Below are positions 40,370 through 45,558 of a stretch of DNA of 49,929 nucleotides, one piece after another (positions within the stretch are counted from its first letter, which is position 1; every line of letters begins with the position of its first letter). Below the pieces are notes generated by a model. It saw nothing but the letters and a program-made list of their open reading frames with translations. It searched no databases and was not told the origin of the DNA. A program made the translations under genes and the position numbers. This DNA comes from an uncultured Pelagibacteraceae bacterium (GTDB lineage: Bacteria; Pseudomonadota; Alphaproteobacteria; Pelagibacterales; Pelagibacteraceae): assembly GCA_902519695.1 (NCBI GenBank), contig CABYKN010000004.1:1-49929 (forward strand). The letters run 5' to 3'.

Positions 40370-41764
40370 TTATAAACTCTTAACTATTTCTTCAGTCATT
40401 TTTTTTGCATCTGAAAATAACATCAGTGTATTATCTCTATAAAAAAGATCGTTATCAATACCTGCATAACCAGGTGACAAACTTCTTTTAACGAATAATA
40501 CTGATTTACTTTTTTCAACATCCAAAACAGGCATTCCATATATTGGACTTTGTGGATCAGATTTGGCAACAGGGTTGGTTACATCATTAGCACCAATTAC
40601 ATATGCAACATCACAGTTTGCAAAATCATTGTTTATTTCTTCTAACTCAAAAACTTCATCATAAGGAACGTTAGCTTCAGCCAATAAGACATTCATGTGT
40701 CCGGGCATTCTTCCTGCAACTGGATGTATCGCATAAGAAACTTTTACTCCATTTTTCTTTAATGAGTCTACCATCTCTCTTAATGCGTGTTGTGCTTGAG
40801 CAACTGCCATACCGTATCCTGGAACAATTATTACCGATGAAGCATTTTTCATTAAAAAAGCAGCATCATCTGCATTTCCACTTTTAACGGGCTTTTGTTC
40901 CTCACTGCTTGATTTTAATGTTTGATCAGTAGCACCCCAACCTCCAAGAATTACATTAAAAAATGACCTATTCATACCTTTACACATTATATAAGATAAA
41001 ATCGCTCCAGATGATCCAACTAAAGCTCCAGTAATAATTAGAGCTGAATTCTCTAATGTAAACCCAATACCAGCTGCAGCCCATCCTGAGTAAGAATTTA
41101 ACATTGAGATGACGACTGGCATATCAGCACCACCAATTGGGACTATTAATAAAATACCTAAAATAAAAGATAATAATACGATAGACCAAAATATATTTGA
41201 TGATTGCGTTATGCATAGATAATAAATGAGTAAAATTATTGCTAATCCTAATATCAAATTAATAAAGTGTTGACCTCTAAAGGTAATTGGAGCACCTGAC
41301 ATTATTCCTCTAAGTTTTAAAAAAGCAATAATAGAACCAGAAAACGTAATAGCACCTATTGCGGCTCCAAGAGACATCTCAATTAAACTTGCAAGTTTTA
41401 TATTTCCTGAAACTCCAAGTCCAAATGCTTCGGGCTTTAAAAAGGCTGATATCGCCACGAATACAGCTGCCAAACCTACGAGACTATGAAACCCCGCAAC
41501 TAATTCAGGCATTGCAGTCATAGGAATTTTAAAAGCAATGAATGCACCAACTAATCCACCGACTGTTAGAAAAATTAATACATATATAAAACCTAGACCA
41601 AAATTTCCAAGTGATAAGAAAGTTACTAAAATGGCAATTGCCATTCCTGAAATTCCAAAATAGTTACCCTGTCTTGAAGTTTCAGGGGATGAAAGACCTC
41701 TTAGTGCTAAAATAAACAATATTCCGGAAATTAAATAAAACAGTGCTGAAAGATTTGCAGACAT
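40370..41764 (-). CDS. pntB: NAD(P) transhydrogenase subunit beta
   Basis: PntB carries the membrane domain and NADP-binding domain III of the proton-pumping transhydrogenase, which makes NADPH from NADH. The 464-residue protein has about nine hydrophobic helices, then domain III with [42 protein letters not shown] and [16 protein letters not shown], all close to consensus. It is 2 nt downstream of pntA2 in a split three-gene arrangement typical of alphaproteobacteria. Confidence 0.97.
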
Positions 41765-41766
41765 AG

Positions 41767-42069
41767 TTATTTCTTTTTCTTCTTGTACATTTGCAACATT
41801 CTTTGAGTAACAAGAAAACCACCAAAAATATTTACAGCTGCTAATATTATTGCAAGAAATCCAAAAATATTTGCAGTTTCAAATACTTTTTCAGAAGATC
41901 CGGCTAATGCAGCAATAATTGCTCCCACAATAATTACAGATGAAATAGCATTAGTCACTGACATCAAAGGCGTATGCAGAGACGGAGTAACACTCCAAAC
42001 AACGTAATAGCCGACAAATATTGACAAAATAAATATACTTAGTCTGAATATAAAAGGATCTATTTCCAT
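41767..42069 (-). CDS. pntAB: NAD(P) transhydrogenase subunit alpha part 2 (membrane segment)
   Basis: The 100-residue protein has three to four hydrophobic helices and the family segment [28 protein letters not shown], and ends in a KKKKK tail. It supplies the membrane helices that are fused to the NAD-binding part in E. coli PntA. Its ATG shares one base with the pntA stop, so translation is coupled. Confidence 0.95.
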
Positions 42070-43154
42070 TATTTTATAATTGTTTTTTCAATAATTTCAT
42101 CTTCAAGGTTTATATTAAAACTTTTTTTGTCTTTATCGAATAAATTATTAATGAAATTATAAATATTTTTTGAATAAAGGTTCGAGGCTGACACAGGTAA
42201 TTTGTTAAGAATGTTGGTTTCACCCATAATTTTAACTCCATTTGAGTCCACTATTTCATCAACTTTTGTTAATTCTGAGTTTCCACCTTGTGAAGCAGCC
42301 AAATCATAAATAACAGACCCATTAGGCATTATTTCTATCATTTCTTTTTTTATTATAACAGGAGCTTTTTTTCCAGGAATTAAAGCTGTGCATACCACGA
42401 TATCAATTTTTTTTAGAGTATCTATCAATAACTCCTCTTGTCTTTTTTTGAAATCATCAGAAGTTTCTTTTGCATATCCACCTTCTGTCTCTAAATTTTC
42501 AGATCCCTCAACACTTAAAAATTTTCCCCCTAAACTTTCAACTTGTTCTTTCGAAGCTAATCTGACATCTGTAGCAAATACTATTGCACCCATTCTTTTA
42601 GCTGTTGCAATAGCTTGTAAACCTGCAACACCTGCACCAACAACTAAAACTTTAGCAGCCGAAATAGTGCCAGCAGCTGTCATCATCATTGGTATTGCTT
42701 TTTGAAAATAGGCAAATGAGTCAACAACCGCTTTGTAACCAGCTAAATTTGCTTGGGATGATAATATATCCATTGATTGAGCTCTCGTAATTCTTGGTAA
42801 CATTTCAAGAGCAAAACATTTAATATTTTTAGAAGTTAATTCTTTGAGTTTTGCACTGTTTATAAAAGGATTAAGTACGCCAACTAGTATTTGATTTTTC
42901 TGTAGTTTTTTCAAATTTTCATCATCTAAAATATTCATTTGTAATATTACATTTGATTTAGCTATTACCTCATCACTACTTAATATTTTTGCTCCGTGAT
43001 TCTCAAACTCTTTATCACTAATACCTAAATGGTATGCATAATTTTTTGATAAATTAACTTCCAAGCCTAATAATTTATATTTTTTTATTATATCTGGAGT
43101 TATAGCAACTCTTTTTTCGATATTTGTATTTTCTGAAACTGATCCTATTATCAT
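42069..43154 (-). CDS. pntA: NAD(P) transhydrogenase subunit alpha part 1
   Basis: This is the soluble NAD(H)-binding domain I of proton-translocating transhydrogenase. The 361-residue protein opens with IIGSVSENTNIEKRVAITPD, has EMLPRITRAQSMDILSSQANLAGY, the Rossmann motif VVGAGVAGLQAIATAKRMGA, and YDLAASQGGN. The ATG directly abuts the stop of the 36-codon oxidase-subunit gene. The transhydrogenase may be a major NADPH source here, since no zwf or gnd is seen in the window. Confidence 0.96.
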   Translation of the reverse strand: MIIGSVSENTNIEKRVAITPDIIKKYKLLGLEVNLSKNYAYHLGISDKEFENHGAKILSSDEVIAKSNVILQMNILDDENLKKLQKNQILVGVLNPFINSAKLKELTSKNIKCFALEMLPRITRAQSMDILSSQANLAGYKAVVDSFAYFQKAIPMMMTAAGTISAAKVLVVGAGVAGLQAIATAKRMGAIVFATDVRLASKEQVESLGGKFLSVEGSENLETEGGYAKETSDDFKKRQEELLIDTLKKIDIVVCTALIPGKKAPVIIKKEMIEIMPNGSVIYDLAASQGGNSELTKVDEIVDSNGVKIMGETNILNKLPVSASNLYSKNIYNFINNLFDKDKKSFNINLEDEIIEKTIIK

Positions 43155-43265
43155 TTAAAGAAGAAATATTGCCATCAAAATTAAAACTACAGTAACAGCA
43201 ATTGATCCCCATAGTACAAACTTTGTAAAATTATTCCAAGTATTTTTATGACTATCGTTGTCCAT
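43155..43265 (-). CDS. Small aa3-type cytochrome c oxidase subunit IV-like membrane protein (36 aa)
   Basis: A 36-residue protein is encoded from the ATG at 43265. A polar start MDNDSHKNTWNNFTK is followed by one transmembrane helix (about residues 17-36). The pattern H-x-x-T-W-x-x-F-T-K before a single helix fits the bacterial aa3 oxidase subunit IV family, a tiny accessory subunit. In several alphaproteobacteria it is found just upstream of pntA, exactly as here. Its stop abuts the pntA ATG, and rpmJ ends 3 nt upstream. The main oxidase subunits are not in the window. Confidence 0.7.
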   Translation of the reverse strand: MDNDSHKNTWNNFTKFVLWGSIAVTVVLILMAIFLL

Positions 43266-43268
43266 AAT

Positions 43269-43394
43269 TTATTTTTGTCTAGCTTTAAACTTTGGGTTTT
43301 TTTTGTTTATTATATAAACTCGACCACGTCTTCTAACCAATTTAGAATTTAAATCTCTTTTTTTTAAAGACTTTAAAGAACTAGCTATTTTCAT
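43269..43394 (-). CDS. rpmJ: 50S ribosomal protein L36
   Basis: The 41-residue protein reads [14 protein letters not shown] and then [21 protein letters not shown], a clear L36 of the longer alphaproteobacterial form without zinc cysteines. It starts 2 nt after the stop of the sugar epimerase and is followed after 3 nt by the oxidase-subunit gene. Position between 5S rRNA and pnt genes, rather than in the main ribosomal operon, is noteworthy. Confidence 0.93.
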
Positions 43395-43396
43395 AA

Positions 43397-44284
43397 TTAA
43401 ATTTTTTTCAACTTAATAAACGAACTTATATAATCTTTCAAACTTATTTTTCCAAATTTTTTTTTTACTTTGCTGTTAAAAGATACATTTGTTAAGGCAG
43501 AAGCATGTCTTTCTCCTTTTCTCGGCGGTAATAATTTGATTTTTGATTTAAACATTTTAGCAACCTGCTTAATTGTATAACTATCTTTATGACTTATTGA
43601 GTAATAACGATATTTATCAGATTTCCATGCCTCATAACAAACTTTGATAGTATCAGAAATATGGGTAAATCTTCTTGATTGAGTGCCTGGACGAACAACC
43701 GTAATAGGTTGACCACTTTTGAATTGGTTTTGAAAAATACCAATCACTGTTGCCATTCTACCTTTTTCTATTTGTTTATTTCCATAAACATTATAAAAAT
43801 AAATTATTTTATATTTAAATTTGTACCAATTTTTTAAATTCTCAAGAAATTCTAAATTAATTGCTTTACTAAAAGCATATGGTGATAAATTTTTATCATT
43901 TCCTAAATTACCGAGACTTGCAGATGTCGCGGAATAAATTAATTTAATTTTATTTTCCAAGCAAAAATTAAATACTTCGTAACTTCCTTTTGTATTCGAC
44001 TCTAGACATTGATTAAATTTATCGAAACTCTGAAAGATTCTCGAAAATTCGCCAAAATGAAATAATACCTTTATATTTTTTTTATGTTTAAATAAAACTT
44101 TTTTAATATTTTTTGTATTTGCATTTATATAATTAACTTTTGTAGAAATTACATGATTTTTTTTGAAGCCTGAGGAATAATTATCCAAACTTATTATTTT
44201 ATATTTAGTTTTTTTTAATAAGTATTCGATTAAATTAGAACCTATAAATCCAGCTCCACCAGTAACAACTATTAAATTTTTCAT
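43397..44284 (-). CDS. NAD-dependent epimerase/dehydratase (UDP-glucose 4-epimerase-like)
   Basis: This extended short-chain dehydrogenase probably acts on a nucleotide sugar. The 295-residue protein has the NAD motif GGAGFIGS (9-16), a catalytic SATS/YAFSK set (Tyr136, Lys140), and a GalE-like fold with FYNVYG and RRFTHISD. The sugar is unknown. The ATG cannot lie further downstream because the Rossmann motif begins at residue 5. The coding region therefore starts about 10 nt past the mature 3' end of the 5S rRNA, with rpmJ 2 nt after its stop. Function suggests the polysaccharide island, position the core side of 5S. Confidence 0.88.
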
Positions 44285-44294
44285 CAGGAGTTAA

Positions 44295-44410
44295 GCCTGG
44301 CAATGTCCTACTCTTCCATGTCTTAAGACAAAGTACCATCGGCGCAGAAAGGCTTGACTTCCGAGTTCGGAATGGGATCGGGTATATCACTTTCGCAATA
44401 ATCACCAGGC
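44295..44410 (-). rRNA. rrf: 5S ribosomal RNA (detached from 16S-23S)
   Basis: The minus strand carries a 116-nt 5S rRNA: helix I GCCTGGTGA/TTGCCAGGC, loop region CCCGATCCCATTCCGAACTC, then GGAAGTCAAGC and GCGCCGATGGTACT. No 23S gene lies upstream; instead a divergent epimerase begins 98 bp away, so the gene must have its own promoter or be the end of a rearranged operon. No terminator separates it from the downstream epimerase. End positions are set by the helix I pairing and may be off by 1 to 2 nt. Confidence 0.95.
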
Positions 44411-44416
44411 CATGAC

Positions 44417-44444
44417 CTTATAAATAAAAATTATTAAAAGTAAA
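44417..44444 (-). promoter_or_regulatory. Possible promoter of the 5S rRNA gene
   Basis: On the minus strand TTTACT (44444-44439) and TATAAG (44422-44417) are 16 bp apart, with 6 bp between the -10 and the 5S 5' end. This would give transcription from about the mature end. The region is very A/T-rich, so chance matches are likely. Confidence 0.35.
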
Positions 44445-44508
44445 TAATTATTTTATTTTTTTTTAAAAGATTTAAAAGATTATTAACAAATATAAAGTAA
44501 AGAAAACA

Positions 44509-45558
44509 ATGATATTAGTGACGGGTTCAGCCGGTTTAATTGGAAATTCTGTATCTAGATTTTTTCTAGAAAAAAAAGAGAATGTTTTTGGTATTGATAA
44601 TAATCAAAGAAAAAAATTTTTTGGAATTAATGGAAGTGTACAGAAGAATATTACTTCTTTAAGAAAAATCAGAAAATTTAAACATTTCCAAATTGACATA
44701 TTAAATAAAAAAAAATTAGAAAAATTTTTTAAAAAATATAACTTTGACTTGATAGTCCATGCGGCTGCTCAACCATCCCATGACTGGTCAGCAACAAACC
44801 CTCAATTAGATTTTAATATCAATGCAAACGGGACACTGAATATTTTAGAATGTATTAGAAAATATAACTCTAAATCAATATTTATTTATTTGAGCACTAA
44901 TAAAGTTTATGGTGATAAAGTAAATTATTTTAATTATAAAGAACTTAATAGTAGATATGAAGTTGAAAAAAAATATAAAAATGGTTTTAATGAAAATTTA
45001 AGTATAGATAACTCTAAACATAGTCCATTTGGAGTATCAAAATTATCTGGAGATCTTTTAGTTCAAGAATATGGTAAATATTTCAATATAAAAACAGTTT
45101 GCCTTAGAGCTGGTTGCTTAACTGGAGAAACGCATGCTGGCGTAGAGTTGCATGGTTTTTTGTCTTATCTTTTCAAATGCTCTTTTTATAAAAAAAAATA
45201 TTATATTTATGGCTATAAAGGAAAACAAGTTAGGGACAATCTAAGTTCATATGATGTTGCGTCTATAATTTGGGAATTATACAAAAAACCACCTAAAGCT
45301 GGAGAAGTATTTAATATTGGTGGGGGAAGAAAATCAAATATATCAGTTTCTGAAGCAATAAAAAAATGTGAGTTAATAACTGGTAATAAATTTAATTATA
45401 AATATGTAAATATTGAAAGATCAGGAGATCATAAATTTTGGATTACTGATATGTCAAAATTTAAAAAAAATTATCCTAATTGGAGAATTAAATATATAAT
45501 TGATGATATACTTTATCAGATGAATGATTATGAAAAATTTTCAAAACTTAAAAGATAG
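44509..45558 (+). CDS. NAD-dependent epimerase (CDP-paratose 2-epimerase-like)
   Basis: The 349-residue extended SDR has the NAD motif TGSAGLIG (5-12), AAAQPSHDWSATNP, LSTNKVYGD, and a C-terminal GYKGKQVRDN and FNIGGG, a pattern seen in epimerases annotated as CDP-paratose 2-epimerase-like. The usual catalytic YxxxK is replaced by Phe174 and Lys178 in HSPFGVSK. Either another residue takes the acid/base role or the reaction differs. It is the first gene to the right of 5S rRNA, divergent from it, and overlaps the next gene by 35 nt. The substrate is unknown. Confidence 0.82.
   Translation: MILVTGSAGLIGNSVSRFFLEKKENVFGIDNNQRKKFFGINGSVQKNITSLRKIRKFKHFQIDILNKKKLEKFFKKYNFDLIVHAAAQPSHDWSATNPQLDFNINANGTLNILECIRKYNSKSIFIYLSTNKVYGDKVNYFNYKELNSRYEVEKKYKNGFNENLSIDNSKHSPFGVSKLSGDLLVQEYGKYFNIKTVCLRAGCLTGETHAGVELHGFLSYLFKCSFYKKKYYIYGYKGKQVRDNLSSYDVASIIWELYKKPPKAGEVFNIGGGRKSNISVSEAIKKCELITGNKFNYKYVNIERSGDHKFWITDMSKFKKNYPNWRIKYIIDDILYQMNDYEKFSKLKR

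Follow-up and report, generated by a model that had tools for sequence, protein, structure and literature searches.

A predicted mixed rRNA–mRNA operon led by an orphan 5S rRNA gene in Pelagibacteraceae

Introduction

Does a 5S rRNA gene that stands only 10 nt ahead of the start codon of a protein gene share a transcript with it, and if so, how would the message be released? This question is raised by a 49,929-nt stretch of DNA from an uncultured Pelagibacteraceae bacterium (hereafter the window, meaning this whole stretch), in which a 5S gene is followed, on the same strand, by a sugar epimerase gene. The setting is SAR11, among the most abundant bacterial groups of the ocean.

A lone 5S gene is ordinary for SAR11. 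In HTCC1062 the only 23S and the only 5S gene are separated by HVR2, a hypervariable surface-polysaccharide (O-antigen) island of 48 kb, and among 36 5S fragments from the Sargasso Sea, 19 had the same gene beside the 5S (PMC2217521); in a 2025 study the O-chain cluster is delimited by 23S at one end and 5S at the other (PMC11898729). The likeness to our locus lies in this split organisation, with the sole 5S on one side of the island and 16S–23S on the other; in the available parts of both papers the 5S serves as a boundary marker, and neither a promoter of its own nor a unit with rpmJ is described there. The gene order, too, had already been glimpsed: in the available portion of Meyer et al. 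2009 (PMC2704228), rpmJ precedes the 'pntA motif' in HTCC1062, and the commonest annotated gene before that motif in metagenomes is 5S or rmlB. The order was read there as a structured RNA before pntA, with no operon reading in that portion, whereas in our data the motif looks protein coding. We found no earlier description of the conservation of the 5S junction that our sequence comparison indicates, and no transcriptome of this junction in the literature.

Results

The 5S rRNA gene occupies positions 44295–44409 on the minus strand, matches the RF00001 covariance model over its full length (model positions 1–120, 91 bits against a gathering score of 38, E 2.3e-18) and is the sole 5S found in the genome assembly; the initial annotation had recognised a complete gene on this strand, with one end (44410) off by 1 nt. 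After a 10-nt spacer, TTAACTCCTG in minus-strand reading (44285–44294), there follows on the same strand the ATG (44284–44282) of an ORF at 43397–44284, which encodes an NAD-dependent sugar epimerase/dehydratase (PF01370, 114 bits) and for which no NCBIfam equivalog scored above its cut-off. The earlier claim that a Rossmann motif fixes this start was borne out, as both motif and alignment begin at that ATG in 31 loci of the genus, which rules out a misplaced epimerase start codon. Likewise, the gap was rightly described as lacking a ribosome-binding site and a terminator: no SD-like motif is present in 44285–44294, and a scan of 43000–44700 found no terminator-like site.

Neither a 23S nor a 16S gene was found in the window, so that the first reading of a 5S without a 23S stands as an observation; the feature is, however, known for the clade and no peculiarity of this genome. 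In four complete relatives, 23S and 5S lie 46–62 kb apart on the same strand, and the window's 5S is flanked on its opposite side by sugar and glycosyltransferase genes, in keeping with the split rRNA operon of Pelagibacterales. Neither the window's own assembly, which is incomplete, nor six other genomes tried yielded a 23S, which we take as a limit of search or assembly and not as absence.

Downstream of the epimerase, the minus strand carries rpmJ, encoding ribosomal protein L36 of type B (43269–43394; PF00444, 60 bits; NF002021 above its cut-off), which starts 2 nt beyond the epimerase stop; a 36-aa membrane protein of the aa3-type cytochrome c oxidase subunit IV family (COX4_pro_2, PF07835, 43 bits; 43155–43265); and, directly after the stop of the latter with no spacer, the start codon of pntA (42069–43154), encoding the N-terminal part of the NAD(P) transhydrogenase alpha subunit. 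Further pnt genes follow at 41767–42069 and 40370–41764. The order 5S-(epimerase)-rpmJ-COX4-like-pntA is thus tightly spaced, terminator-free and on one strand, and the suggestion that a transcript from the 5S may reach epimerase, rpmJ and pnt is upheld by comparison, all of these genes lying downstream of the 5S promoter described below. The rpmJ at 43269–43394 is the only L36 gene found in this genome, and its type B product is of the zinc-independent kind.

Comparison of the junction with that of other SAR11 genomes, proposed as a check in the initial annotation, was carried out on 155 non-duplicate Pelagibacteraceae 5S loci from 11 genus groups, the window included. A start codon lies 6–38 nt after the 5S in 150 of the 155, across all 11 genus groups (148 assigned by rule and two, L100 and L105, by eye), with a median gap of 11 nt and a 5–95% range of 8–25 nt; at L166 the rule returned 0 nt on account of an upstream alternative start, the true ATG being 11 nt on. 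Recurrence in 150 loci of the family rules out an assembly artefact behind the junction. The first gene after the 5S is rpmJ in about two-thirds of the loci, and in about one-third the epimerase is inserted before it, with rpmJ no more than 45 nt from the epimerase stop in 48 of about 51 such loci, mostly at −4 to +5 nt. An epimerase after the 5S, as first reported, is therefore present and yet not central: it is a facultative cistron, and rpmJ is the recurring neighbour of the 5S.

A pntA tree with 121 labelled loci requires at least 17 switches between the epimerase and rpmJ states (mean of 25 with shuffled labels). These are not to be read as 17 proven independent insertions; the whole junction may travel as one block through homologous recombination at the 5S. 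As read from gene order on this tree, the epimerase insertion is scattered, and the junction is repeatedly remade with a tight gap each time.

In five genomes (L034, L044, L049, L050 and L065) the junction is broken. Three of them have 5S and rpmJ about 860 nt apart, with a converging glycosyltransferase gene in between, and one of these three, L044, carries an epimerase-like gene before the 5S; in another genome a same-strand gmd-like gene lies 66 nt after the 5S, and the last has its 5S in inverted orientation beside rpmJ. The existence of these five genomes indicates that rpmJ can be expressed without an adjoining 5S. At L213 (genome G060) the 5S is inverted relative to rpmJ, possibly through an inversion at the island edge or an assembly error.

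Outside the family the picture is different. In the sister family of the order, none of 20 5S loci shows the start-codon junction, and rpmJ follows another gene there, which rules out an ancestral alphaproteobacterial 5S–rpmJ linkage; such an ancestry is also opposed by our class-wide sample of 142 genomes, in which, outside the order, G494 alone has the linkage. In this alphaproteobacterium, rpmJ lies 72–75 nt behind the 5S in both rrn operons (L180 and L181), in the order 16S-23S-5S-rpmJ-terminator, with a strong intrinsic terminator only after rpmJ in the one copy that was read. A 5S was detected in 63 of the sampled genomes outside the order, and by coordinates G494 is the only such case among them; in the assembly of its near relative G525 neither 5S nor rpmJ was found. 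The G494 arrangement is an independent parallel to the 5S–rpmJ arrangement of Pelagibacteraceae.

Sigma-70 start sites follow a rule of 6–8 nt from the −10 box. In the window, a −35 element TTTACT (44439–44444, minus strand) was found by motif scan at a place where TTTACA, TTTACT or TTGACT occurs family-wide, together with a −10 element TATAAG (44417–44422, minus strand) 7 nt before the first paired C of the 5S. Family-wide, an element of the form TTTACA-16/17-TATAAA/G is present in 94% of 121 anchored loci (114 with a match, at a score of at least 9 of 11) compared to 12% of shuffles, and to 10% of regions further upstream in an earlier version of the scan. In 105 of the 114 loci with a match, 6–7 nt separate the end of the −10 box from the first C of the 5S, and the predicted transcription start consequently coincides with the 5S 5' end. 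By contrast with this family-wide promoter, the 48 nt leading up to the start codon hold fewer promoter-like sites than shuffled sequences do (0.7% of loci vs 2.3%). A separate promoter inside or after the 5S, which the initial annotation had named as the finding that would overturn its reading, thus has no sequence support, and the scans rule out a hidden terminator or promoter in the gap.

Short spacers are normal in this genome, the median same-strand spacer in the window being 2 nt, and across the window together with 360 kb from a complete relative an ORF lies 4–5 nt downstream of two of seven tRNAs. The closeness of 5S and ORF alone may accordingly reflect streamlining, and our argument rests instead on conservation, on promoter position and on the absence of another promoter or a terminator. 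The gaps are 89% A/T family-wide and contain an SD-like motif in only 1 of 148 cases, ruling out a hidden SD before the start codon; SD use is low in general as well (11% of first-ATG ORFs vs 4% at a control position, in the same 360 kb plus window). Folding of 113 junctions showed the AUG region to be equally unpaired with or without the 5S attached (0.67), and an RNase E/G family protein was detected in all seven genomes tested, the window's own among them.

The RF01810 'pntA sRNA' model scores 51.8 bits at 43208–43267 on the minus strand, slightly short of the gathering score of 54, and also matches L185:18788–18849. The match lies in frame over codons 1–20 of the COX4_pro_2 ORF. Among 66 distinct sequences, it is the third codon position that varies most (entropy 0.42, 0.14 and 1.05 bits by position), and pN/pS is 0.15 for the ORF and 0.07 over the RF01810 span, compared to 0.93 and 2.66 in the other frames. 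Rather than a non-coding structured RNA, a candidate we reject given the frame, the low pN/pS and the PF07835 match of the conserved 36-aa ORF, RF01810 is best read from these patterns as the coding start of the small COX4_pro_2 protein, a correction that affects the RNA annotation of many marine genomes.

Discussion

With gene order, shared strand, tight gap, conservation, a promoter before the 5S and the lack of any recognisable terminator or further promoter ahead of the ORF all read directly from the DNA, the best reading of this locus is a mixed rRNA–mRNA operon led by an orphan 5S, with a 5S–rpmJ core conserved in Pelagibacteraceae. Co-transcription of the 5S with the downstream protein genes is, on these features, probable, and we infer one continuous transcript. 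RNA polymerase would start at the dedicated sigma-70-type promoter, with the predicted start at the 5S 5' end, read through the 5S without a terminator into rpmJ, or into the epimerase and then rpmJ, and continue into the gene of the small COX4-like protein and then pntA. The 5S part of the transcript would fold on its own, and an endonuclease, most likely RNase E as in E. coli 5S precursors, would cut the AU-rich single-stranded gap of about 10 nt, giving 5S rRNA and an mRNA that begins with a 5'-monophosphate and has a very short leader without SD (about 10 nt), translated by SD-independent initiation, presumably at the first AUG. In the window, the spacer at 44285–44294 is the proposed site of both the 5S 3' cleavage and the remaining mRNA leader. 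Each transcript would give one 5S and one L36 message.

Operons in which rRNA genes are followed by distal tRNA or protein genes are known. They resemble the arrangement proposed here in that a stable RNA and other genes are freed from one transcript by processing, and differ from it in that the leading gene here is an orphan 5S with a promoter of its own, followed by the mRNA within about 10 nt. RNase cleavage in the 5S–mRNA gap is plausible by analogy with E. coli, where RNase E cuts the 9S precursor of 5S (PMC2948425). The proposed cut is likewise in single-stranded RNA beside helix I of the 5S; the distal piece in E. coli is, however, a terminator or tRNA and not an mRNA with an AUG 10 nt away.

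Passive streamlining, in which 5S and rpmJ are co-transcribed only because deletion removed terminator and spacer, with no functional coupling of 5S and L36 output, is an explanation to which we give considerable, though less than even, weight; it shares the co-transcription step with the mixed operon, and our confidences in the two are not exclusive. The 2-nt median spacer, the tRNA–ORF gaps of 4–5 nt and the five genomes that tolerate disruption of the junction speak for it, whereas the same partner gene conserved across 11 genus groups, the junction kept tight through at least 17 state changes and the parallel in G494, where the terminator of an intact rrn operon is placed after rpmJ, speak against it. 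Conservation, state changes and the G494 parallel argue for constraint, and do not prove coupling. The stronger proposal, that 5S maturation and L36 synthesis are obligately coupled, such that the 5S-releasing cut creates the translatable 5' end of rpmJ or epimerase–rpmJ, with the same logic having separately evolved in G494, is one that we offer tentatively and regard as doubtful.

The 5S must far outnumber the L36 mRNA, a difference for which stability or attenuation could account, and Rho- or other factor-dependent termination after the 5S might let through only a little transcription, acting as an attenuator that sets a low mRNA output from a strong promoter; with no intrinsic terminator found in 43000–44700, we consider this unlikely. 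Still less probable is that the 5S stays uncut as a structured 5' UTR of a translated 5S–mRNA fusion: the AUG region does fold as open with the 5S attached as without, but a 5S in such a fusion would either be unavailable to ribosomes or tether the mRNA to the 50S subunit, and the end of helix I, 10 nt from the AUG, should on general grounds crowd the 30S footprint. That a leaderless mRNA begins at the start codon from a separate promoter in the 5S or the gap, with 5S transcription ending separately, is highly improbable given the under-representation of promoter-like sites there and the lack of a terminator between 5S and ORF, even if leaders of 6–15 nt without an SD resemble those of leaderless genes.

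If the mixed operon is true, the only 5S of SAR11 would be made as the 5' part of an mRNA for a ribosomal protein, which would tie the supply of rRNA directly to that of r-proteins in cells that have few regulators, and a surface-sugar gene would have been repeatedly inserted behind an rRNA promoter. The junction would also offer an easy way to examine how bacteria translate messages that arise through rRNA processing, and under obligate coupling, were that to hold, rRNA processing would gate the synthesis of a ribosomal protein.

Two further observations concern the surroundings of the 5S. In the sister family (L140–L159), a conserved stretch, TACTAAACGTGAAA...TGTCAC, comes after the 5S; GTGA and TCAC in it could pair, and beyond it lie variable polysaccharide or other genes. 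A same-strand epimerase of the family found in the window can also stand immediately ahead of the 5S, as it does in about a fifth of the epimerase loci of named genomes (L044, L222, L225, L228 and others), indicating that both borders of the 5S attract this gene.
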